DNA of 64,000 nt. It comes from Bacteroidaceae bacterium (GTDB lineage Bacteria; Bacteroidota; Bacteroidia; Bacteroidales; Bacteroidaceae). Shown here piece by piece: positions 1 through 10,509 of this stretch; position 1 is the first letter of the stretch, and the number at the start of each line of letters is the position of its first letter. Both the position numbers and the translations under genes were made by a program. The notes beneath the pieces were generated by a model that saw only the letters and a program-made list of their open reading frames with translations, did not search any database and had not been told where the DNA came from. Where the stretch lies: assembly GCA_017416805.1 (NCBI GenBank), contig JAFQBB010000011.1, positions 1 through 64,000 of the forward strand. The letters are read 5' to 3'.

Positions 1-672
1 CATTTTGCATAGCCATCATTGCTCAAACAAGGATTATCATCGGTATCAAAGTAACACGCTTCTATCTGATTGCCACGAACATCGTACTTACACGTCCATT
101 TTGCATAGCCATCATTGCTCAAACAAGGATTACCATCGGTATCAAAGTAACGCACTTCTATTCGATTGCCACGATTATCGTATTTTGCTGTTCTTTGAGC
201 ATAGCCTTCGTTAATCAAGCACAGATGTCCCTCTGCATCAAAAAAACAGTTTTCTATCTGATTGCCACGATCATCGTACTTACACGTCCATTTTGCATAG
301 CCTTGATTGCTCAAGCAAAGATTATCATCGGTATCAAAGTAACACGCTTCTATCTGATTGCCACGAACATCGTACTTACACGTCCATTTTGCATAGCCTT
401 GATTACTCAAACAAGGATTATCGTCGGTATCAAAATAACACACTTCTATCTGATTGCCACGAACATCGTACTTACACGTCCATTTTGCATAGCCTTGATT
501 ACTCAAACAAGGATTATCATCGGTATCAAAATAACACACTGCTATCTGATTGCCACGAACATCGTACTTACACGTCCATTTTGCATAGCCTTGATTACTC
601 AAACAAGGATTATCATCGGTATCAAAATAACAAGCCTCTATCACATTGCCATCACTATTGACCTCGCAAACA
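1..672 (-). repeat. 96-bp in-frame tandem repeats, at least seven copies
   Basis: Repeat boundaries marked by cattttgcatagcc occur at 1, 97, 289, 385, 481 and 577, exactly 96 bp apart, with a diverged copy occupying 193-288. The other copies are nearly identical at DNA level, including silent positions, which points to recent duplication or gene conversion. Each unit encodes 32 residues. The array continues past the window edge. Confidence 0.95.
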
Positions 673-2054
673 CTTATAGCATACATCAGTTCATTCAACA
701 CGAGGCTGTCTTGAAGATTGAAATATATCGTCTTTTGAATATTTCCATGCGGTTCATATACATAAGAACACCCGGCAACACCTTTTTTAGTACAAGCTTT
801 TTCTCCTTCGAATCCCAAATACTCCACTCGGATGCGACGCCCCAAGGAGTCAAGGGTGTATTGCTTGCCAAAAATGCCGTCAGCATCGCTCACGGCACTC
901 CGCGATAGCTGGTAGTCGTTGTTGGAATGATAGGTCTGCCGGACGATGTAGCCATCCGCATTCCGTTCATATACATAACGGACAATGCTCGCCTTATTCT
1001 GCCCAGAAGCCATCTCACCCATCGACAGACTGGAAAGGGAAGCTCCCACAAAGCCCGTCCCCTGCTGTTCGCGCGAAGCGATGAAATCAGCTACCGCAGC
1101 AGGCACTCCGTTACGTTCGGACAACACATGGCGCAAAAGTACCTTGCCCTTCACATCGCAAAAGTTGATGCGTGATGCCACTCCTGTCTCTTCGTTATAC
1201 TCCATCTGCATGATGGGATAGCGGTCTTTCCATTCGGTTATAGTCACCTCTTGTGGACGCAATGCCGAATTGACATACGACACCTTGTTCACCCGCCACT
1301 TATAAGCATTAGGCTCACCAAAGGGAATACGTCGAAATTCAAAAAGGAAACAACGAGTCCTCTTCTCAACCTGCTCATCAGTCAATGGAATCACACCTTC
1401 AGGCACGCCATAACGGTCCACATAGTCGGCAAAGCAGGCATAGGTTGGCCGGTTGTAATCCCAAACAAACAAGCCTATCAAAAAGAGAAGCAGGGCTATC
1501 ACTCCTACATTTATCCGACGATGTACAACGCGACGACGATGACGTTGCCAAAGAGTGTCAAAACGAAGTCCTAACAATGTGGCCACCAAACGCACCACAG
1601 CCATTTCCTTACCCACCTCTTGTACATTGATGCCCAACAACTCCTTTTCCTGAGGCAATTCTAACAAAGCTTTGGGAAAGCACTCCTCTTGCGGATTATC
1701 AGCATGAGGAATACCATCCACAATGAAAGGGACAATCTGCTCAGCGCGCCCTTCGTCAATGAAAGTCTGTACTTCCTTATTGACCCATTCAGATTCTGTA
1801 GCATGAGGCGAACAGACTGCGATCAAGAACTTGGAATTGAGTAATTCACTTCGTAACTGCTCAGAAAGCACACCACCTCCCAAATCTGTCTTGTCCCGAA
1901 ACACCGGGCGGATATATTTGGGTATATCTGTATTCTCCTTACGGATGACAGCCGGCAACTTATAGTTTTCTAATTTCCGTTGTAACCATTTGGCCCATTT
2001 CTCGTCTTCTCGCTTATAGCTTATGAATGCGTAATATCCTTTGTGATTTTTCAT
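1..2054 (-). CDS. TIR domain, transmembrane, tandem-repeat protein (3' end cut by window)
   Basis: The frame is open from an ATG at 2054 to the left edge, so the C-terminus is missing (about 684 residues visible). Residues ~6-150 form a TIR domain: FISYKRED at the first strand and SEWVNKEV, where E94 sits at the position of the NADase catalytic glutamate. A basic stretch is followed by one membrane helix (~182-199, VGVIALLLFLIGLFVW). Residues ~200-460 match no family I recognise. From ~461 on, a 32-residue unit recurs in perfect register (CYFDTDDNPC ... GYAKW ... YDVRGNQ), seven copies before the edge. It is the last visible gene of the island, 48 bp after the double-TIR gene. TIR domains hydrolyse NAD or act as signalling scaffolds; the repeats may be a binding surface. 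The TIR and membrane calls are firm; the function is inference. Confidence 0.85.
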   Translation of the reverse strand, partial: MKNHKGYYAFISYKREDEKWAKWLQRKLENYKLPAVIRKENTDIPKYIRPVFRDKTDLGGGVLSEQLRSELLNSKFLIAVCSPHATESEWVNKEVQTFIDEGRAEQIVPFIVDGIPHADNPQEECFPKALLELPQEKELLGINVQEVGKEMAVVRLVATLLGLRFDTLWQRHRRRVVHRRINVGVIALLLFLIGLFVWDYNRPTYACFADYVDRYGVPEGVIPLTDEQVEKRTRCFLFEFRRIPFGEPNAYKWRVNKVSYVNSALRPQEVTITEWKDRYPIMQMEYNEETGVASRINFCDVKGKVLLRHVLSERNGVPAAVADFIASREQQGTGFVGASLSSLSMGEMASGQNKASIVRYVYERNADGYIVRQTYHSNNDYQLSRSAVSDADGIFGKQYTLDSLGRRIRVEYLGFEGEKACTKKGVAGCSYVYEPHGNIQKTIYFNLQDSLVLNELMYAISVCEVNSDGNVIEACYFDTDDNPCLSNQGYAKWTCKYDVRGNQIAVCYFDTDDNPCLSNQGYAKWTCKYDVRGNQIEVCYFDTDDNPCLSNQGYAKWTCKYDVRGNQIEACYFDTDDNLCLSNQGYAKWTCKYDDRGNQIENCFFDAEGHLCLINEGYAQRTAKYDNRGNRIEVRYFDTDGNPCLSNDGYAKWTCKYDVRGNQIEACYFDTDDNPCLSNDGYAK

Positions 2055-2102
2055 AAAACTTCAAAATAAAATAACCGTCAAATAATCTTGCTACTCTTGC
2101 AA

Positions 2103-3038
2103 CTATTTTAACCATCTTGTCAAATCTTTGCACAATTTCTCCATTCGTATATTCGAAGAAGCATCAATTTGCTGCTTTGTTCCAAACATCAATTCAAACC
2201 AATCCGTCAGTGGCGAACCATCAATATTGACAAATACAATTCTCTTCCTCTTTTTCTGAGCAAAATTAATCTCTCGTACAGTCCAATCTGTATCATAATC
2301 TTCTATCTCGGAATGAGCATGAGAATACATAAACAAAAATATTGGAGCATTATTGATAGCCTTTATTATCACATTAGCAAATTGTGCATCACTTTCAATA
2401 CCATCAAGATCTATCCAACATTTTACACCTGTATTCTTCTCAATAATGTCTTTCAATGGGAATACCTTCTTTTCATCAACCCTCTTATACGAAATAAAAA
2501 TACGAAAACTTGCATCCAAATTTATTTCTTCTGGAATAGGAATTGTTGCAGAAAGATATGTCCTGTTATTTACCTCTCTCTTAGCAATTGAACTTGGCAG
2601 TATTTCTTTTGAGAAATTCTCTTCATTCCTTCCTAAAGCACAACTGATGTCCCTTATAATTGTACCTTCAATATTAAGACTGCCTGAAAACTGCCAATTA
2701 ACTATATGTATAGTTCCCAAAAGATTCTTTAATCTGTCAGGAAGTTGTGAGTTGTCCACCACAACAGGAAGGACAACTCCATCTGTTTTATTAAGAGCAT
2801 ATTCTAATTCTTTTATTACAAATTCTGAACTATATGAATTTTGGGACAATATACACAGGAACAATTTGCTATTATATATAGCATTAATTATTGATTGTAA
2901 AAAATCTAAACCTGTATCAAAACCTTGTCCGTCTTTAATGTAGGTAAATCCACCAGAATTCAACGCACTGACAATTCTATCTACAACAGCATAGTCTCTT
3001 CTACTAGCACTTATAAAGACATCATATCTGTAATCCAT
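2103..3038 (-). CDS. double TIR-domain protein
   Basis: 311 residues with two TIR domains and little else. TIR1 (~4-135) begins YDVFISASRRD and carries SSEFVIKEL, with E77 at the catalytic-glutamate position. TIR2 (~177-311) begins FRIFISYKRVDEKK and has DWTVREINF with E256 at the same position. There is no signal peptide or membrane helix, so it is probably cytoplasmic. Bacterial TIR domains cleave NAD+ or make cyclic ADP-ribose-type signals in immunity; two per chain is less common than one. The gene lies between an unknown 142-residue gene (about 100 bp upstream) and the TIR-repeat gene. The DNA is AT-rich compared with the fimbrial genes beyond 11 kb, in line with horizontal acquisition. 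The domain call is firm; whether both domains are enzymatic is unknown. Confidence 0.88.
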   Translation of the reverse strand: MDYRYDVFISASRRDYAVVDRIVSALNSGGFTYIKDGQGFDTGLDFLQSIINAIYNSKLFLCILSQNSYSSEFVIKELEYALNKTDGVVLPVVVDNSQLPDRLKNLLGTIHIVNWQFSGSLNIEGTIIRDISCALGRNEENFSKEILPSSIAKREVNNRTYLSATIPIPEEINLDASFRIFISYKRVDEKKVFPLKDIIEKNTGVKCWIDLDGIESDAQFANVIIKAINNAPIFLFMYSHAHSEIEDYDTDWTVREINFAQKKRKRIVFVNIDGSPLTDWFELMFGTKQQIDASSNIRMEKLCKDLTRWLK

Positions 3039-3138
3039 TTCAATACTCTTGTTTTAGGGTTCTAATAGACAATTCATACATCACCTCCAATTGAAGAATA
3101 ATCATATGAGAGCAAGAACATGAAGGTCGTATATTTCA

Positions 3139-3567
3139 TCACACCTCTTCCAGAAAATCATGTTTCATGCAAAATAGCAATTCCCGTGTGTATTCTTCAA
3201 GCAAGCCTTTGTAATAGGCGACATCCTTGTGGTTGGTTTTTGTAATACGTTCCCATAGGGTACGCTGTTGGGCATCGCGGTATGCATGAGCAATTCCCTC
3301 GCGGTCATCCTCGGTCATCATATCGCGAAGATGGTTCTTATCGAGAATCTCATTGAACGTACGTTTGTCATCAAGAGCTATTTCTGCCCAAAGTTCTTTG
3401 AGATACTCACGGTATTCCGCTTCTATGCGTAACGGTAATTCCGGAGTGTAGTCACCTATTGTTTCCGGACAATCAACGGATGCCTCTTTTACAAGGTTTC
3501 CGAAATATTTATTCAAAAGAGCATCAGCTTTTTGGGTACAGCGTTTTTCTATTTCTTTACGTTCCAT
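3139..3567 (-). CDS. unknown 142-residue cytoplasmic protein
   Basis: I do not recognise this family. The protein is soluble, highly charged and predicted mostly helical, with no signal peptide, membrane helix or cysteine motif. It reads MERKEIEKRC at the start and ends in an acidic tail (HDFLEEV). The start ATG is 9 bp after the stop of the zinc-ribbon gene upstream, so it is very likely co-transcribed with the island. A gap of about 100 bp to the double-TIR gene could hold an internal promoter, but I see no clear TAnnTTTG box there. Position suggests an accessory or regulatory component; no function can be assigned from sequence. Confidence 0.7.
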   Translation of the reverse strand: MERKEIEKRCTQKADALLNKYFGNLVKEASVDCPETIGDYTPELPLRIEAEYREYLKELWAEIALDDKRTFNEILDKNHLRDMMTEDDREGIAHAYRDAQQRTLWERITKTNHKDVAYYKGLLEEYTRELLFCMKHDFLEEV

Positions 3568-3576
3568 ACAACATAA

Positions 3577-4083
3577 TTATAAAGGTTTGCCACACTCAAA
3601 ACAGAATTTGGCGGATTCTACATTTTTTGTACCACAATTGGTACAGAACTTATAACCGTTAGACTTAGTAGATGTCGCACCGTTATTGTTATTCATATAA
3701 AGAACATCCTTGGCAATATCCAAAGCCTTGTCATCGAGCTTTGACTGTTCAACCATGCCCCAAATCTGAGTAATGAGAACCGGCCAAAAGAAAAGCATAG
3801 AGATTACTGTAGGAATTGCCTGCTGTCCCCAGATACCCACACCTGCCTCAAAGTGAATGTTGCTACCTTGAGGAAGCAATGTAACCTTCAAAGCGGTCTT
3901 CATTCCCAATACAGCCTTGAATATTCCGCCCTTAGTGATTGATATGTCATAGCCGCCACTACTCAACGCATCCATAGCGACTTCATAGCCTTCGTTCTGA
4001 AACTCTTCTTGAATGCGGTTTGCAATAGTAGGAATCAACGAAGATGAACCGTATAATATCTTTTTAGTGCTAAAAGTTGCCAT
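3577..4083 (-). CDS. zinc-ribbon membrane-associated protein
   Basis: 168 residues. The C-terminus is a double-CxxC zinc ribbon (CTNCG ... CFECGKPL, ~147-168). Before it is a hydrophobic stretch (~92-110, IPTVISMLFFWPVLITQIWG) that looks membrane-inserted or buried. The N-terminal ~90 residues form an alpha/beta region without a family I recognise. The gene is 5 bp downstream of the 85-residue gene and 9 bp upstream of the unknown 142-residue gene, so it belongs to the same transcription unit. It is one of three island proteins with a C-terminal zinc ribbon, the others being the M48 and C39-like peptidases, suggesting a shared partner or assembly mode. The function is unknown. Confidence 0.75.
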   Translation of the reverse strand: MATFSTKKILYGSSSLIPTIANRIQEEFQNEGYEVAMDALSSGGYDISITKGGIFKAVLGMKTALKVTLLPQGSNIHFEAGVGIWGQQAIPTVISMLFFWPVLITQIWGMVEQSKLDDKALDIAKDVLYMNNNNGATSTKSNGYKFCTNCGTKNVESAKFCFECGKPL

Positions 4084-4088
4084 AGTTC

Positions 4089-4346
4089 TTATTTGTTAAA
4101 GTTTTGGATGGAATGAAAATTATAGATTGCGTACAATACACTTGACTCTACAAGCAAGCTCTTTATCTCTGCAAGTTGCTCTTCGCTGTACTTTGCCTCC
4201 ATATCGTGAAGCATTGCAACAACTTTATCTGACTGTGCTTTAATCTCCTCTTCGGTGATTACTCCATCTTTCATAATAGCCTTGAAAGATGCATTGTTGA
4301 CGACCATTTCGTCAATGTTCAGGATTCCTTCTTCGTTGAAAAACAT
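4089..4346 (-). CDS. small acidic protein, unknown
   Basis: 85 residues, acidic and helical, no membrane segment or metal motif. The central part (KDGVITEEEIKAQSDKVVAML) resembles short helical modules often placed beside bacterial membrane or protease genes, but I cannot name a family. It starts 27 bp after the M48 peptidase gene and ends 5 bp before the zinc-ribbon gene, so it is almost certainly an operon member. It could be a substrate, inhibitor or chaperone of the neighbouring peptidase; that is a guess from position only. Confidence 0.65.
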   Translation of the reverse strand: MFFNEEGILNIDEMVVNNASFKAIMKDGVITEEEIKAQSDKVVAMLHDMEAKYSEEQLAEIKSLLVESSVLYAIYNFHSIQNFNK

Positions 4347-4373
4347 GATTTTTAATTTAATGGTGAAAATGGA

Positions 4374-5252
4374 TTATAGTTTTGCTCCACAATATTTGCA
4401 ATAAGCCCAATCCGCACACACAGACCTGTTGCATTCAGGACATTTCTTGCCTGATGCTTCTGCTTTCAGATTCTGCATTAGATTCCTGTACTGTGGGCTT
4501 TCTCCCCATTTGAGGATTTCACGTACTCGCACAGCTGTGAATGGATGTGATTGTCCGATTATGATAGAGAGTTGCAATGCTTTGTTCCACAAACCATCAT
4601 TCTTTATCTTCTCGTATTTATCGGCTTGCAGTGCCCACTCCTGTATATTCAAATTGCTTGTTATAGACTTCGGACCACCTGATAAACGAGCCATCGAGCG
4701 AGCTACAATCTCAGGGGAGGTTATTATACCACCACATCTATCACACGATAACTCACTCTTTCTGTACCAATACAAAATGGCGTACTGAATAGGAACTGTA
4801 AGCGAACCTAAAATTCCCATGGCATCCGCACCGCTGAGAATATACTGAGCTATGCTATGATATAGCACATGGCGACAAAGAATATGACCACATTCGTGTG
4901 CGATTACCGCATCCAACTCCTCATCATTGAGCAGTTCTACCAAACCCGATGTCATGGTGATAAAAATTTTGGTGTCACCAAAAGTCCATGCATTTGGTAC
5001 TGGATCCATTTGCAGATAGAACTCAGGCTCAGGGATGCCTAACTTCTCACAAATTGGCGGAAGGTGATTGTAAAGTTTGGGTAATTGAGTAGGAGAAAGA
5101 CGGATTGCTGTCGCCATATTCATACCATACCGCAATTGTTCAAATCCCAATTCCATTATCTTCTTGACAAGGGCAGGAAATCCCGGGATGCTTTCTAACT
5201 GACGCAATGCTGCAGCGTCTTCTGGATGAATAAATTCTGCTGGTTTAATCAT
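4374..5252 (-). CDS. M48-type zinc metallopeptidase with C-terminal zinc ribbon
   Basis: 292 residues. The catalytic HExxH motif is AHECGHILCRH (HECGH at 119-123) and the third zinc ligand is probably E167 in RKSELSCDR, as in the Ste24/HtpX-like M48 family. A C-terminal ribbon (CPECN ... CKYCGAKL, ~271-292) follows. A mildly hydrophobic stretch at ~130-163 (between the motif and E167) may be membrane-associated. M48 enzymes usually cut membrane or stress-damaged proteins. The gene begins 6 bp after the stop of the C39-like/RyR gene, so the two are translated from one message. The active site looks intact. The peptidase call is strong; its substrate and any link to the TIR proteins are inference. 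Confidence 0.88.
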   Translation of the reverse strand: MIKPAEFIHPEDAAALRQLESIPGFPALVKKIMELGFEQLRYGMNMATAIRLSPTQLPKLYNHLPPICEKLGIPEPEFYLQMDPVPNAWTFGDTKIFITMTSGLVELLNDEELDAVIAHECGHILCRHVLYHSIAQYILSGADAMGILGSLTVPIQYAILYWYRKSELSCDRCGGIITSPEIVARSMARLSGGPKSITSNLNIQEWALQADKYEKIKNDGLWNKALQLSIIIGQSHPFTAVRVREILKWGESPQYRNLMQNLKAEASGKKCPECNRSVCADWAYCKYCGAKL

Positions 5253-5258
5253 TAAAAC

Positions 5259-6419
5259 TTAATCATCTTGATATTTTGTCCAATCAATATTCAATTTATG
5301 ACCGCATGCATTGCAATATACATACCCTCTGAATATGGGTGTTTTATCGTGTTCTTTTGAACAATACGGACAATAAAGTTCTTCTTTGGCTGCACGGATA
5401 CGCGCAAGCAATTCACGATAAAGGTCTGTATCTTCCCGTTTTACCAGATCATATCCAACTTTGCGCACTAATCTCAGCGTATTCATGGCCATCTTACGAT
5501 CATATTCTTTCTCTTTTTCAGGCAACTGTGAATATGGAAGCATGCAAGGAGTTTCTTTCTTATTTTCATCACGTTTGGGACCATATGTCCAACCTTCAGC
5601 CTGACGGTCAACCGCCCAAATTTCATGGGCGTTCTCAGCAATGGCTTCACGCAATTCGGTCAAATCTCCATCTAATACGATATCCGACAAATCTATCGGT
5701 TTAGGATTGTAAGTCTTCATTTCTTTTGTGTTTATAGTTACTAAATAATTTTTCGAATCATTCCAGGCATCCATGAATTGTTCCAAAGAATATACATCTT
5801 TTGCATCCGGGGTATTGGGGTCATAAAGAGTGATTGTCTGTCCCTTTCTGTCAACCCCTAATACTACAACTGTATGGTCGGGAATTTCTCCAACAAACAA
5901 ATCTTCCTTAATTTCATTCAAACGATTGTTCAACAATTCGCCGCCATCTACTGCAACTATGACATCATCACCTCTCAGTAACGCCTCTTCTATATCTGAC
6001 AAAGATGTCTTATACCGACGCCCAACTATCAGACCTGCATATTCCAAATGTCGGCCTACATTATGTAAAGCAGTCCCGCCTTTTTTCAACCAACCGTTCC
6101 GAATAGCATTCTGGACAAGTTGTTCTTCATCAAAATTCATTCCCCTTCTACGAAGTATATATTTCTCACATTCCAAACAACAATGACATTCTTCACTGAA
6201 AGTAGCGGCCAATGCTGTCATCGGAAGGTGGTCTATCTCCTGTGGCATTATACCAAGTTCGGAATCTACAGACTGAGAAATATGCATCAGTTCCCTCAAC
6301 GCAGCATCCTCAGAAAGAGCTTCAAATATTTCCAGACTCTCACGAGCAGTCGCATTACCGTCAAGGAATGCTGCCAATACTTCTGCCGATATGTTGCTGT
6401 CAACAAACTTTTTCTTCAT
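5259..6419 (-). CDS. anti-sigma-like / C39-like cysteine peptidase / RyR domain / zinc ribbon fusion
   Basis: 386 residues with four recognisable parts. Residues ~5-55 (EVLAAFLDGNATARES ... LRELM) have the helical pattern of anti-sigma factor N-termini. Residues ~70-230 look like a C39-like papain-fold peptidase: a cysteine cluster (C78, C80, C81, C84), H182 in DHTVVVLGVD and D200 in LYDPN. Residues ~255-325 (HEIWAVDRQAEGWTYGPKRD ... LPYSQLP ... EYDRKMAMNTL) match the RyR domain. A zinc ribbon (CPYC ... CNACGHKL) ends at ~376. The start overlaps the sigma-factor gene by 20 bp, which is typical of translational coupling between a sigma factor and its regulator. The RyR assignment is by motif memory and should be confirmed by profile search. 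Confidence 0.82.
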   Translation of the reverse strand: MKKKFVDSNISAEVLAAFLDGNATARESLEIFEALSEDAALRELMHISQSVDSELGIMPQEIDHLPMTALAATFSEECHCCLECEKYILRRRGMNFDEEQLVQNAIRNGWLKKGGTALHNVGRHLEYAGLIVGRRYKTSLSDIEEALLRGDDVIVAVDGGELLNNRLNEIKEDLFVGEIPDHTVVVLGVDRKGQTITLYDPNTPDAKDVYSLEQFMDAWNDSKNYLVTINTKEMKTYNPKPIDLSDIVLDGDLTELREAIAENAHEIWAVDRQAEGWTYGPKRDENKKETPCMLPYSQLPEKEKEYDRKMAMNTLRLVRKVGYDLVKREDTDLYRELLARIRAAKEELYCPYCSKEHDKTPIFRGYVYCNACGHKLNIDWTKYQDD

Positions 6420-6969
6420 ACCTCTCCATGTCTTTAAGTGCCACTTGAGTCAATGCATCTATGGCACGTTTTTTCACATTGTACAAATTATCTACATTGG
6501 TGTCAAGTTCATCAGCCACGTCCTTGGGATTGGCATCCTCCAATACCAACCTTTGGATGACATAGACATATCGTTTGTTTGGCATCAACCGAAACAATCG
6601 CTCTATATCCATCTTTGCAGAAATCCTTCTCTCATCATCAACTGTATCATCCTGTCCGGCATTATCAAAAAGAGTTTCTTTGGATTCCATATCTATCATA
6701 CTATCACGTTTTGCAACAAAGTAACGGATAGCGACAATCTTCATCCACTGATAGATGGAACTCCGCCCTTGGAACAGTCGAAGTCTATAAGCATCATTCT
6801 CCATGAGGTACAGGTAGAATTCATTTACAAATTCATCGTAATCAACCTCGTATGAAAACACATTGCGGATGATACTACTGAAAAGCGGACGGCAATCCTT
6901 GAAAAAGAATTGCAAAGTAATCTTTTCATCGCGAGCAATCAATGCCTCTATGAGTTGTTGGTCAGTCAT
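6400..6969 (-). CDS. sigma-70 family (ECF-like) RNA polymerase sigma factor
   Basis: About 189 residues. The N-terminal half (region 2) includes DEFVNEFYLYLMEN and RSSIYQWMKIVAIRYFVAKR. The C-terminal half (region 4) has a helix-turn-helix, NPKDVADELDTNVDNLYNVK, followed by a basic helix. This layout is that of Bacteroidetes ECF sigma factors, though region 2 is diverged. The ATG at 6969 overlaps the stop of the upstream RyR gene as TGATG; a GTG one codon earlier is also possible. The downstream gene overlaps it by 20 bp and carries an anti-sigma-like N-terminus, so the pair probably forms a sigma/anti-sigma switch that could control the island. The promoter it recognises is not visible. Confidence 0.85.
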   Translation of the reverse strand: MTDQQLIEALIARDEKITLQFFFKDCRPLFSSIIRNVFSYEVDYDEFVNEFYLYLMENDAYRLRLFQGRSSIYQWMKIVAIRYFVAKRDSMIDMESKETLFDNAGQDDTVDDERRISAKMDIERLFRLMPNKRYVYVIQRLVLEDANPKDVADELDTNVDNLYNVKKRAIDALTQVALKDMERYEEKVC

Positions 6970-9797
6970 CACTTAACATCTTTCCTTTTACTGTCAATCT
7001 CCGCAGTTCTTCGAAGAATAGTAGGAATGGCTCTGACAAGGTCCGTATCATAATTTACAGCCAATACATCTATACTTTTCAACTCTTCATACGGACATAA
7101 ATCCAAATGGGCCAAAAGTTCCTTTTTCTTGTACTTCTTTTTCAAGTTATCCAAAGAGTCAAGTTCTTCATTAGAAAGTTGCTGGCCATTTTTTATCTTT
7201 TCACGATATATATCAAACTCTTTCCACTCGTTTGTTTTCAATGCTCTATAGTTTAGCAATAACTTTTCCATGTTCCATCTGTTGTGTTCTACTTTTGACA
7301 AATGGAGTTCCTTTTCTTCTTTAAGGATTTCTTGTTCCATTACCGATGGATTGATGTCCAGGTTCAATCCGATAGAACGCAACTTGCATGGAATGGAGTT
7401 CGCAAAATAGATATTTGACCATTTCAAATCAATAGACAAACTGTTCCAACTCTTTTCTGTTGCACTAAATTCTGCATTAAATTGTGGATCATCGTAAAAA
7501 GCATTCACAAACTTCGGCGCAGTTTCATCCATCAACCTCTCATCGTAAGCCAAATCTGTCATACCAAACGGACGTATCTTATTGAATTTATTCTGCTCTA
7601 TCAACACTCCATTACTGTTCATTCCGGCTAAATCGTATACAATTTCTGGTAATTTGTGTTGGTATATCAATATCTGAAGTGCACGCTCCAACACAATGGG
7701 AGGAAGATAGATGCCTGTTGCTATGGATTGATAAGGCAACTGACGGCAAACTGCAACTGTCGTATATGCACTATTGTCTGTCACTGCTTTCTCCAAATAT
7801 TCTCTTATTTCCGGACTCTCTATATTACCTTGGATGAATTCCCATTGTATATCCAAGAAACTTTCTTTCACATAAGAATAGTCTTCATTGTCTTTTACTT
7901 GGTCAATCCAACCATCATGGTCCAAATCATACAATTTAGATTTGTCATATTGTTTGGAATCAATTTCGCGAATACGAGAAAGTTCAAATAAAAAAGGATA
8001 ACGGCCTTTCAGAAAATTCATCTCCCGAAATGCTTCAGAATCAATAAAAGTAATGGTTGTTCTCCATTTAGAATCACGCAAGAAATTTGGATAATGAGCA
8101 ATCTGCGCAGTTTCAAAAGCCATAGCAACACCCATAGGTGTCATACCTATAATAATCATGTGCACCCGTTTGTCATCACTGTAACTTATGCCACAATTGT
8201 CTATTGGCTTATATGTTATTCTGCGATCTCTTATATTATTAAAACGAACCTCGCGGGTCATCCGTTGACGTAACCAATGTAGAATCCGGCCTGACAAGTT
8301 ATAAACAAAAAAGTCTTCACGGGGAGATTTCAGTATCTGATAAGTTGGTTCTATAGATTCGTTCTTTACCAAGACCTTTTGAGCCCACATCTCATAAATG
8401 TTAAAGGGCGTAAAGATGATATTGTCCCTTATTTCTTGATTGACATCAGAGAACTTGAACATGGCATAAGTACTCTGATGTTCAAACATAACGTTGCATT
8501 TCAACTTCTTACCATGAGACACAACACTTATATAAGAGGCTATCAGATTCAAGCATTTCATATTCAAAGAATCATGATAATATTCTTCCGCACTCACATC
8601 TTCACTTTCTCCCAAGATATAGACTTCCGATGCCTTCTCAAGATGCAAATCTGCAATATCATCTTTTGAGGTTCGGTCCCCCTGATATATAATGGTCCTT
8701 TCTTCGTATTCTTTAGGCAAGAAGGACGTTAGTTCCGTACGTAATTTTTCAACATTCTGTTTGGTTTGAACCAATATATAAGGTGGATTTTTATAATAGA
8801 ATATTTGTTTGACAAGAGTGGTTATAAAATCTTCACCTCCTATGATGACCACATGATTCTTAACAGTTACAGAGTACCTCAATTCTCCTTTTGCCCAACG
8901 CTCGCGTCGTCTTTCAAACATACTTATCAACATTGTAATCAATAAACCTGTCATTATAATACACCCTAAAACGGAAATAACGAATGTAATAAAACGACCA
9001 CGTGAAGACATTGCCATGTGTTGATTGCCTGGGTCTATGAAATGATACAGTACAGTCCAAAACAAAGAGGGACTATCATGATTTATCCGTTCAGGGAAAC
9101 CGTCCTTTTTCACAATGAATTCCCAAGACGAACCTGTATCTTTGTAAGAAACAATATCATTTGTCAATATTTTACAAAAGCTAAAAGAATCCTGTTCCAT
9201 TACAGCTTGCCCCATTAGATCCAATTCTGTAAAATTGGTAGTACAAATATTCCTGTCAAGTATAATTTTTGAGAACAAAACAGAATCATTAACAGCATCC
9301 TTTGAAACCAAACTTACCGTATCGCCTTTTAATAAGGAATTCTTCGCATCCTCACTTAAAATGTTGTCTAAAGATATACGGAAAGTTCTTTTATCAGACT
9401 CAGTCTGCGAATCTGAATTTTGTTGTAATAAAGACACGGTGTAGAATCCCTGTTTGTCACGATATATAGCATCCTTATTTATACGTATTGTATCGTACAA
9501 AGAAGGATAAAGGTCTGAAGACCAAACCAGTTCTTTTGAATCTATCGTCTTTTCACAAAATGCATTCCCTACAATCCAAATAATCGCAGTAATAGCAAAA
9601 GGTGTTGCCAAGACGAAAGTCAAAATGCTTGATGCAAAATTCCGGACAATAATTCTATCACGCTTAACAGGCTTAAAAAAAGTATATAATACGACTACCC
9701 AATAATATACTAAGGCCAATGCACATGCTATCGATATTAAAATATCCAATGAAGTTAAATCCTTGGCGGAATTTCCTAAGAAAATAAATTCTGACAT
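6969..9797 (-). CDS. membrane protein with TrkA-N/RCK-like nucleotide-binding and RyR-like domains
   Basis: I place the start at 9797, giving 942 residues. The longer reading frame from 9944 would run through the terminator of the upstream RNA. Two membrane helices lie near 18-41 and 48-79, an extracytoplasmic segment of about 180 residues follows, and a third helix (~262-285, FITFVISVLGCIIMTGLLI) leads to a basic stop-transfer. A Rossmann-like region (~295-430, HVVIIGGEDFITTLVKQ) and a second one (~545-570, IIIGMTPMGVAMAFE) resemble tandem TrkA-N/RCK domains of ligand-gated ion channels. The C-terminus has an RyR-like signature (VEHNRWNMEKLLLNYR ... HLDLCPYEELKSID). No selectivity-filter motif is evident. 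It is first in the island operon. A sensor or channel-like effector is the likely role, by inference. Confidence 0.78.
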   Translation of the reverse strand: MSEFIFLGNSAKDLTSLDILISIACALALVYYWVVVLYTFFKPVKRDRIIVRNFASSILTFVLATPFAITAIIWIVGNAFCEKTIDSKELVWSSDLYPSLYDTIRINKDAIYRDKQGFYTVSLLQQNSDSQTESDKRTFRISLDNILSEDAKNSLLKGDTVSLVSKDAVNDSVLFSKIILDRNICTTNFTELDLMGQAVMEQDSFSFCKILTNDIVSYKDTGSSWEFIVKKDGFPERINHDSPSLFWTVLYHFIDPGNQHMAMSSRGRFITFVISVLGCIIMTGLLITMLISMFERRRERWAKGELRYSVTVKNHVVIIGGEDFITTLVKQIFYYKNPPYILVQTKQNVEKLRTELTSFLPKEYEERTIIYQGDRTSKDDIADLHLEKASEVYILGESEDVSAEEYYHDSLNMKCLNLIASYISVVSHGKKLKCNVMFEHQSTYAMFKFSDVNQEIRDNIIFTPFNIYEMWAQKVLVKNESIEPTYQILKSPREDFFVYNLSGRILHWLRQRMTREVRFNNIRDRRITYKPIDNCGISYSDDKRVHMIIIGMTPMGVAMAFETAQIAHYPNFLRDSKWRTTITFIDSEAFREMNFLKGRYPFLFELSRIREIDSKQYDKSKLYDLDHDGWIDQVKDNEDYSYVKESFLDIQWEFIQGNIESPEIREYLEKAVTDNSAYTTVAVCRQLPYQSIATGIYLPPIVLERALQILIYQHKLPEIVYDLAGMNSNGVLIEQNKFNKIRPFGMTDLAYDERLMDETAPKFVNAFYDDPQFNAEFSATEKSWNSLSIDLKWSNIYFANSIPCKLRSIGLNLDINPSVMEQEILKEEKELHLSKVEHNRWNMEKLLLNYRALKTNEWKEFDIYREKIKNGQQLSNEELDSLDNLKKKYKKKELLAHLDLCPYEELKSIDVLAVNYDTDLVRAIPTILRRTAEIDSKRKDVK

Positions 9798-9864
9798 AAT
9801 CTGTTTCACACATTCAGCAGACTCCCCAAACTGTGAAATGGTATTCTCTTTAAGGCATATATAC

Positions 9865-9901
9865 AAAAAAAGCGGGGAGCCTGTACCCTTGCCCGTCCCG
9901 C
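9865..9901 (-). terminator. intrinsic terminator of the structured RNA
   Basis: On the minus strand AGCGGG pairs with CCCGCT around a ~20-nt loop and is followed by a run of seven T. It lies 68 bp upstream of the chosen start of the RyR/TrkA-N gene and argues against the longer N-terminus. Confidence 0.8.
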
Positions 9902-10178
9902 TCATCAGAGGCTCTCGCATTGCCCACAACACCTGAACGAGCAATGCCGAAGCCCCACGCAGTATATATTCCTCACGTACCTATACGACACAATGCGCGT
10001 ATAGATACAATGAGGGCTATAAACATACCCGAGGTCATTCACCATTGCAATGTCCGTGGCGCTGTTTTGAATTTGCGAGATTCTGATGAGCCAAGAACAA
10101 AGCGCTAAGTAAACGCCTTTTCTACATATGTCTGTCCCTTACCCGACCACCCTTCCTCGAAGAGCTTCGGCATGAAGA
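9866..10178 (-). ncRNA. structured non-coding RNA, possibly the Bacteroidales 6S-like (Bacteroidales-1) RNA
   Basis: A TATCTTTG box lies at 10184-10191 and a strong hairpin with seven U at 9865-9901, defining a transcript of about 310 nt. Read on the minus strand it has several local hairpins, for example CGGC/GCCG near its 5' end, CTATACG/CGTATAG and CATTGC/GCAATG. There is no convincing open frame. Length, promoter type and terminator fit the housekeeping RNA described in Bacteroidales as Bacteroidales-1, which I recall being linked to 6S RNA, but I cannot verify the family here. It lacks the conserved RNase P and tmRNA signatures. As an alternative it could be an attenuated leader of the island operon, because no separate promoter is evident between its terminator and 9797. 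Confidence 0.55.
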
Positions 10179-10412: not shown

Positions 10413-10438
10413 ACTCACCCCTATTTGTCTTATTTGTG

Positions 10439-10509
10439 TTGGGGTATATGGACTCGAACCATAAATGACAGGACCAGAATCTGTAGTGTTACCATTACAC
10501 CATACCCCA
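10439..10509 (-). tRNA. tRNA-Gln (anticodon CTG)
   Basis: The minus strand folds as a cloverleaf: acceptor TGGGGTA with TACCCCA, D-arm GTGT/ACAC, T-arm with GGTTCGAGTCC. The anticodon loop is TTCTGGT, giving CTG, which reads CAG (glutamine). The lowest pair of the anticodon stem looks mismatched (A with C). The 3' CCA is not encoded. Confidence 0.88.

Follow-up and report, generated by a model that had tools for sequence, protein, structure and literature searches.

We propose, tentatively and from sequence comparison, that nine genes of a Bacteroidaceae bacterium may form a TIR-driven nucleotide-signal circuit with two read-outs, a cation channel and a sigma factor held by a soluble anti-sigma protein. 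The genes lie at positions 1 to 9797 of the window, the 64,000-nucleotide stretch of DNA that was analyzed, where the open reading frame (ORF) listing gives a compact minus-strand operon of nine ORFs. The features, in order of transcription, are given below; L, G, and C numbers denote loci, genomes, and contigs in the comparison.

6969 to 9797, minus strand: probable CASTOR/POLLUX-like channel, from the ATG at 9797 (the ORF listing extends to a TTG at 9944), with three hydrophobic segments, the filter motif FIDPGNQ, an RCK domain, a second Rossmann-like region, and a C-terminal RyR-like domain.
6969 to 7310, minus strand: C-terminal RyR-like domain of the channel, placed by a 12-row alignment and profile-profile comparison.
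6400 to 6969, minus strand: extracytoplasmic function (ECF)-type sigma factor, from the ATG at 6969, with an alternative GTG at 6972.
5259 to 6419, minus strand: soluble anti-sigma protein (the C39/RyR or switch protein), overlapping the sigma gene by 20 bp and running from an N-terminal anti-sigma segment through a C39-like domain (C80, H182, and the Asp in YDPN) and a RyR domain to a zinc-ribbon tail.
5445 to 5711, minus strand: RyR domain (PF02026) of the switch protein, in which the His, Trp, and Asp of the site of the phage protein RyDEP are kept and H100 is replaced by Thr.
4374 to 5252, minus strand: M48 metallopeptidase with HECGH, a later Glu in KSEL, a zinc-ribbon tail, and no membrane segment.
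4089 to 4346, minus strand: small conserved protein of 85 amino acids (aa), with BLAST relatives in L003, L004, L005, L012, L020, and L053.
3577 to 4083, minus strand: zinc-ribbon protein with one hydrophobic segment, in the same cassette as the M48 and 85-aa proteins.
3139 to 3567, minus strand: small protein without an assigned role, with relatives in L003 and, directly adjoining a channel gene, in L045.
2103 to 3038, minus strand: soluble double-TIR protein with a candidate catalytic Glu helix in both domains (FVIKEL and WTVREI).
3 to 2054, minus strand: TIR protein with a single transmembrane segment and repeats, carrying the helix motif WVNKEV and incomplete at the contig end.

Six of the eight junctions between these genes overlap or leave a gap of no more than 27 bp, and at the other two the genes stand 48 and 100 bp apart; the compact run of nine minus-strand genes described in a first-pass annotation, made from the letters alone, was therefore borne out. 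Its RyR, TIR, M48, and zinc-ribbon assignments also held, with Pfam matches in the encoded proteins: PF02026 in the product of 5259 to 6419 (E = 9.8e-32; 109.5 bits against a cut-off of 27.4), TIR_2 once in that of 3 to 2054 (E = 1.5e-15) and twice in that of 2103 to 3038 (E = 1.3e-30), for three domains in total, Peptidase_M48 in that of 4374 to 5252 (E = 4.3e-19), and a zinc ribbon domain in that of 3577 to 4083. The first base of the window is also base 1 of contig C33, in a genome of 3.16 Mb and 64 contigs; the gene at 3 to 2054 is therefore truncated, and the break falls within a 96-bp tandem repeat of 6.8 copies. The operon has a GC fraction of 0.39, compared with 0.45 downstream, and a tRNA-Gln gene (10438 to 10509) lies 640 bp upstream of it. 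The best named matches of the switch protein are from Bacteroidaceae, Rikenellaceae, and other Bacteroidales metagenome-assembled genomes.

The proposal that these genes are a linked system rather than a random cluster is supported by the neighbors of RyR domains and by recurring gene order. Of 295 genomes, 25 were RyR positive, with 31 RyR places above the cut-off that merged into 28 loci. TIR_2 occurred within 5 kb of RyR at 13 of the 28 loci, against 0.19 expected (binomial p ~1.6e-21), a value that overstates independence because the window and its sister locus on contig C49 are among the 13 and some of the genomes are congeneric. At the genome level, TIR was present in 20 of the 25 RyR genomes and in 88 of the 270 others (Fisher p = 4.7e-6). 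Channels scoring above 400 bits were found at 15 places, seven of which have PF02026 within 2 kb (in one case in the channel's own C terminus, and in another in the window). Among 14 loci related to the switch, the order channel, sigma factor, C39/RyR protein recurs in L003, L004, and L005, with one additional ORF separating channel and sigma factor in L003. BLAST relatives of the TIR proteins are present in eight of these 14 loci (L003, L004, L005, L007, L009, L010, L011, and L016), a biased set, since it was picked by similarity to a RyR-bearing query. A TIR gene is present at some place in each of eight switch-bearing genomes, those of Alistipes among them, and RyR in seven of these. The M48, 85-aa, and zinc-ribbon genes form a recurring set in L005, L012, L020, and L053, with a looser grouping in L004. 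In L020 (11903 to 16595), a TIR protein with a SIR2-like match just under the cut-off and then an nSTAND1 protein are encoded downstream of sigma-C39/RyR-M48 genes. The sister locus in the genome of the window (L017; 8008 to 12539 of contig C49) has a stand-alone RyR gene beside TIR genes, and its TIR-repeat fragment is more than 50% identical to the repeats in the window.

It is very probable that the sigma factor and the switch protein are a sigma/anti-sigma pair. A search of the 295 genomes, all of the same order, with the switch protein gave matches in 14, with 10 places above 90 bits, of which four (G000, G208, G237, and G028) are rows of the query alignment. The sigma gene lies directly upstream of the C39 gene in nine of the 10 strong places (gap, -23 to +22 bp), and five of the six strong places outside the query have a directly abutting sigma gene; the exceptional tenth place (G218; L058), which is listed with two internal stops, has its sigma gene 1.7 kb off. 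Four further places match only the N-terminal 43 to 73 residues. In three of these (L065, L066, and L067) the matching protein is encoded directly downstream of a sigma gene that passes TIGR02937, and one of the three proteins bears a FecR domain (63.1 bits). Since this N terminus is common to proteins encoded directly downstream of sigma genes, we take it to be the anti-sigma segment; weak zf-HC2 matches are found at the N termini of the L055 (E = 0.01) and L012 (E = 0.025) proteins. Sigma and C39 identities are correlated (r = 0.81 over 15 pairs, from 105 comparisons that are not independent, with L058 omitted). The fourth N-terminus-only place, L068 (G155), has neither C39 nor an adjoining sigma gene and was set aside, as was L069 (G100), a C39 protein with no adjoining sigma gene.

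The sigma and C39 assignments made at first pass stand in several relatives of these proteins, and the window copies themselves fall under the cut-offs. The window sigma factor reached 31.2 bits against the TIGR02937 cut-off of 42.9 and had no Pfam match. Five of eight sigma relatives scanned pass (L054, L057, L065, L066, and L067), and three do not (L053, L055, and L008, a narrow miss at 41.6); among the C39-adjoining relatives (L008, L053, L054, L055, and L057), two of five pass. The window protein is 48 to 68% identical to eight of 10 aligned relatives and 20 to 22% identical to L012 and L007, and an 11-row sigma profile matches solved sigma factors (E = 0.004 to 0.09), ranked under one unrelated chain. 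For C39_2 (PF13529), the window protein scored 13.2 bits against a cut-off of 24, and six of 10 relatives pass. In an alignment of the window protein and nine relatives, which excludes the shortened L010 and L011 proteins and the second L007 protein, C80, C84, E85, and H182 are invariant, and the third catalytic residue is Asp in eight of the 10 rows, the window included, and Asn in two; in the second L007 switch-like protein, position 84 is Ser. Among solved structures, the C39-like peptidase 3erv matches best (E = 0.0038), aligning through the His/Asp half, with the Cys half scoring just -0.4 bits. With the triad kept in the window, proteolysis remains a plausible step for sigma release, as had been suggested. 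Sensing at the membrane at this step, which had also been suggested, does not fit. A membrane-anchored anti-sigma was rejected because no hydrophobic or membrane segment was detected in the switch protein, which also lacks a FecR domain (Pfam); sensing at the anti-sigma step would therefore be cytosolic, presumably via RyR.

Several side observations concern this switch. Alistipes L008 encodes C39 and RyR in two adjoining genes. L067 (1474 to 4500) has a sigma gene, a 113-aa anti-sigma-like protein without C39, and two M48-like genes by eye, in the manner of a stripped switch. In L057, sigma-C39 genes lie next to dynamin-family and Hsp70 genes (Pfam), with L055 and L058 similar by eye; L059 and L060 have sigma-C39 or C39 genes by dynamin-family, Hsp70, or GTPase genes, and Anabaena and Rhodococcus plasmids are among such loci. 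These loci (L055 and L057 to L060) look like another output set under a similar switch. A plasmid search with the switch protein only gave 15 records that match in part, none reaching 80%. A short integrase-like fragment lies directly upstream of the sigma gene in L020 (8184 to 8432; by eye).

The membrane protein, which had been described as carrying tandem nucleotide-binding domains and read as a plain sensor, is better seen as a likely CASTOR-like cation channel. It is 942 aa long, with three hydrophobic segments, the second and third separated by ~195 residues. It carries an RCK domain (Slo-like_RCK in 6969 to 9944; 25.1 bits against a cut-off of 24) and the second Rossmann-like region. 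The family profile matches GsuK/TrkA, DMI1, CASTOR, and BK chains (E = 0.001 to 0.02). Profile-profile comparison with seven bacterial CASTOR-like proteins, each of which carries Castor_Poll_mid, gave 98.7% probability (2.7e-16; 210 columns), compared with 97.1% (7.7e-11; 129 columns) for four K+ channels. The window filter, FIDPGNQ, is of a non-K+ type, and its CASTOR counterpart is ADSGNHA. By motif or by eye, the window and 16 of 19 homologues retain the filter Asp, the exceptions being L009, L048, and L049 (by eye); 10 of the 19 have a D[PSA]G[NTG] filter, and by eye L050 has DPGC and five have IDxNA or IDSSA. Eight CASTOR-like proteins came up in the same search; five match D[PSA]G[NTG], one has DSGA by eye, and L070 and L077 have neither. 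A study of CASTOR gives the channel's filter as AD265S(A)GNHA and reports no current for the D265N variant (PMC6697748). A K+ channel reading was rejected, since the profile is closer to CASTOR-like proteins and none of the 19 homologues matches T[VIT]G[YFL]G, a pattern that also misses two of the four K+ controls (SVGYG); by eye, no homologue has xVGYG. Castor_Poll_mid (PF06241) was not found by Pfam in the window channel or in six pore-type relatives and was present in all seven CASTOR-like controls scanned, L070 and L077 lying outside that scan. We infer that the bacterial channel may be selective for Ca2+.

The channel C terminus is taken as a diverged RyR domain. Across 12 aligned channels, E837, R840, W841, H897, and D917 do not vary and H838 hardly does, and comparison with RyR profiles (E = 6.7e-4; probability, 27%) places the four ligand residues in register. 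The earlier RyR assignment in the membrane protein stands in two relatives and not, by PF02026 (Pfam), in the window copy, which has no match. Two of eight channel-type relatives pass PF02026, the L043 channel (30.5 bits), with the pore motif, and an L021 protein of 726 aa (28.5 bits), by eye without it; the L030 channel is just under the cut-off (23.2 bits), and the five other relatives have no match. In a search for viral copies of the channel, none of the 23 pattern matches was confirmed. Two phage-labeled records contain RyR. One, L063 (MT836850; labeled Bacteriophage sp.), looks bacterial and has a RyR-channel pair, whose channel piece resembles that of L030, as well as what by eye is a sigma/anti-sigma-like operon; the other is MT837259.

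TIR-made nucleotide signals are known to switch on defense effectors. The helix motifs with Glu in the double-TIR protein (FVIKEL and WTVREI) belong to a type that we take to mark NADase TIR domains, and the repeats of the TIR-transmembrane-repeat protein should probably lie outside the membrane, given a single transmembrane segment with a basic N side. Whether the TIR proteins are the source of the signal is an evenly balanced question. They had been cast as effectors; a role as signal makers for RyR appears at least as likely as one as end effectors, an argument that comes from a 2026 preprint on phage RyR proteins (PMC13232231).

In the preprint, phage RyDEP, a RyR-domain protein (PF02026), cleaves TIR-made cyclic ADP-ribose (cADPR), six of eight phage homologues bind cADPR, eight homologues tested did not cleave, and two act as sponges (PMC13232231). 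Counterparts of RyDEP H75, W78, and D117 are present with the same spacing in phage Nepra and in every one of the 32 bacterial RyR domains examined, of which 13 are switch-type or related and 19 are stand-alone (the list excludes the RyR domains of L013 to L016, L027, L036, L063, and L064). The counterpart of H100 is His in four of the 13 switch-type or related domains and in 16 of the 19 stand-alone domains; it is also His in the window channel domain. Further matches of the switch RyR domain are to RyR1-3 of animals and to 3nrt, a bacterial "putative ryanodine receptor" of solved structure. We lean slightly toward RyR as a sensor of an ADP-ribose-type ligand. In L061, a Priestia plasmid (1653 to 9862), a RyR gene directly follows an adenylate/guanylate cyclase gene, near a Pycsar-type effector and a TIR gene, a hint that RyR may serve other nucleotide signals.

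In the circuit that we propose, the TIR proteins, one topologically receptor-like and the other soluble, would when triggered make an ADP-ribose-type signal from NAD. This signal would bind the RyR domain of the CASTOR-like channel and gate cation flow, and would bind the RyR domain of the anti-sigma protein and switch its C39 domain, which would cleave or rearrange the anti-sigma and free the sigma factor. A feed-forward alarm would follow, with the sigma factor inducing the TIR, M48, and channel genes, most likely against invaders. The company that these genes keep suggests that they may serve in defense against phage. In its most specific form the proposal is an immune circuit in which a single TIR-made cADPR signal drives two RyR-domain receptors together, one a CASTOR-like channel that may pass Ca2+ and the other a protease-anti-sigma in the cytosol; this form is possible but doubtful.

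The arrangement is reminiscent of several known systems. In Thoeris, the TIR protein ThsB makes 2'/3'cADPR, to which a signal-activated effector responds. The operon likewise encodes TIR proteins with a candidate catalytic Glu, and ThsB models match the double-TIR protein (best, 6.3e-9); unlike Thoeris, none of the nine proteins matches a ThsA model, and the signal would be read out, via RyR, by a channel and a sigma factor. As in FecI/FecR, an ECF-type sigma factor is directly followed by a protein with an N terminus like that of several anti-sigma-like proteins, including one of FecR type; the operon anti-sigma, however, has no transmembrane segment or FecR domain and carries C39-like and RyR domains instead. 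The plant Ca2+ channels CASTOR, POLLUX, and DMI1 and their bacterial relatives share the pore, first RCK, and D-x-G-N-type filter of the operon channel, which differs in lacking Castor_Poll_mid and in having another second half, ending in RyR. Comparative genomics by Burroughs et al. in 2015 reportedly linked RyR, TIR/SLOG, and nucleotide signaling, with predicted networks of TrkA/RCK, TIR, and RyR, and parts of the present arrangement may have been noted there. In the open-access literature, consulted mostly at listing level, we recognized no account of an operon with sigma factor, C39/RyR anti-sigma, and TIR genes, nor of a RyR-bearing CASTOR-like channel. The RyDEP likeness lies in the PF02026 domain and its retained residues and spacing (PMC13232231); in contrast to RyDEP, the operon RyR domains are host encoded and fused to an anti-sigma and a channel, with the H100 counterpart Thr in the C39 fusion.

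A number of observations weigh against the circuit. The RyR assignment of the window channel depends on relatives and on the 27% profile-profile match. The phosphate-contact His of RyDEP is Thr or Asn in nine of the 13 switch-type or related domains, including the window C39 fusion, and since identical residues serve hydrolase and sponge RyR proteins, the residues cannot demonstrate sensing. Six of the 10 strong C39 places have no RyR on or directly beside the switch: RyR is fused to it in G000, G208, G237, and G028, and G119 has a stand-alone RyR 12 kb off. The sigma-C39 pair is thus a wider switch to which RyR is one optional input. In L010 and L011, the C39 part adjoining RyR is a remnant that lacks both the catalytic Cys and the His. 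Alistipes L006 and L008 have a RyR switch with no TIR match within 9 to 10 kb on each side, the TIR genes of these genomes being located elsewhere. A shared promoter motif was not found upstream of 13 operons, the best word pair occurring in five sequences, against shuffled maxima of three to five. Lastly, the nine proteins match no known defense system in PADLOC, which gave TIR-domain matches only, plus a weak DruE3 match (E = 0.027) on the zinc-ribbon protein. Neither of the outcomes that would have refuted the first-pass reading was seen: homologues of the operon genes are found together, and relatives bear out the RyR and sigma assignments.

The strongest rival explanation, which we still consider unlikely, is that the RyR domains are brakes that hydrolyze or soak up the TIR signal so that TIR fires only above a threshold. 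On this reading, the channel and the C39 protein would carry RyR as a limiter and not as a sensor. This explanation accommodates the cleaving RyDEP and its two sponge homologues (PMC13232231), the presence of the RyDEP catalytic His and Asp in all 32 of the bacterial domains examined, the stand-alone RyR genes of ~100 aa that sit by or near TIR genes, and the cyclase-adjoining Priestia RyR. Against it, a brake would work without being joined to an anti-sigma or a channel, as RyR is in several genomes, and the preprint has eight other phage homologues that did not cleave. Quite unlikely is a general NAD/ADP-ribose stress response, in which the RyR switch reads a damage-released metabolite, for example ADP-ribose or NAD(H), and TIR is only one of several regulated outputs. 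The strong RyR-TIR linkage (13 of 28 loci) argues against it, as do the TIR or nSTAND1 genes, typical of conflict systems, at several switch loci; it would explain why Alistipes L006 and L008 have sigma-C39-RyR without the other genes, between the same flanking ORFs (446 and 298 aa), and why sigma-C39 without RyR sits by other gene sets, such as the dynamin-family and Hsp70 genes of L057. It is very unlikely that separate modules (channel with RyR, sigma with anti-sigma, M48 cassette, and TIR) merely cluster in accessory regions without a shared circuit: each is found without the others at some loci, the low GC and nearby tRNA gene are as in acquired regions, and the three genomes sampled from the same family (G059, G165, and G258) have no RyR, channel, or C39 parts, but the operon genes overlap and share one orientation, L003, L004, and L005 preserve the order channel, sigma, C39/RyR, and RyR is common to different modules.

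Beyond these subjects, TPR-repeat proteins that are probably exported adjoin RyR/TIR genes in L024 (4119 to 8149), L032 (9869 to 13730), and similar ORFs.

In conclusion, we have filed the operon among TIR nucleotide-signal systems, of which it would be more than a variant if the circuit were proven. TIR signals, RyR sensing, and cation release are each known from a different setting, namely immunity, animal muscle, and plant symbiosis; if the proposal is true, one operon joins all three and adds a transcriptional alarm. A route from a TIR signal to a sigma factor would constitute a transcriptional arm for bacterial immunity. Phage RyR proteins have their fold and ligand site in common with the RyR proteins of the host, which suggests that they may have a counterpart in the host other than Thoeris. 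The channel would combine a CASTOR-like pore with a RyR domain within a single polypeptide; as such it could be a prokaryotic equivalent of cation release under cADPR control, and it would bear on why animal RyR channels retain the RyR domain.

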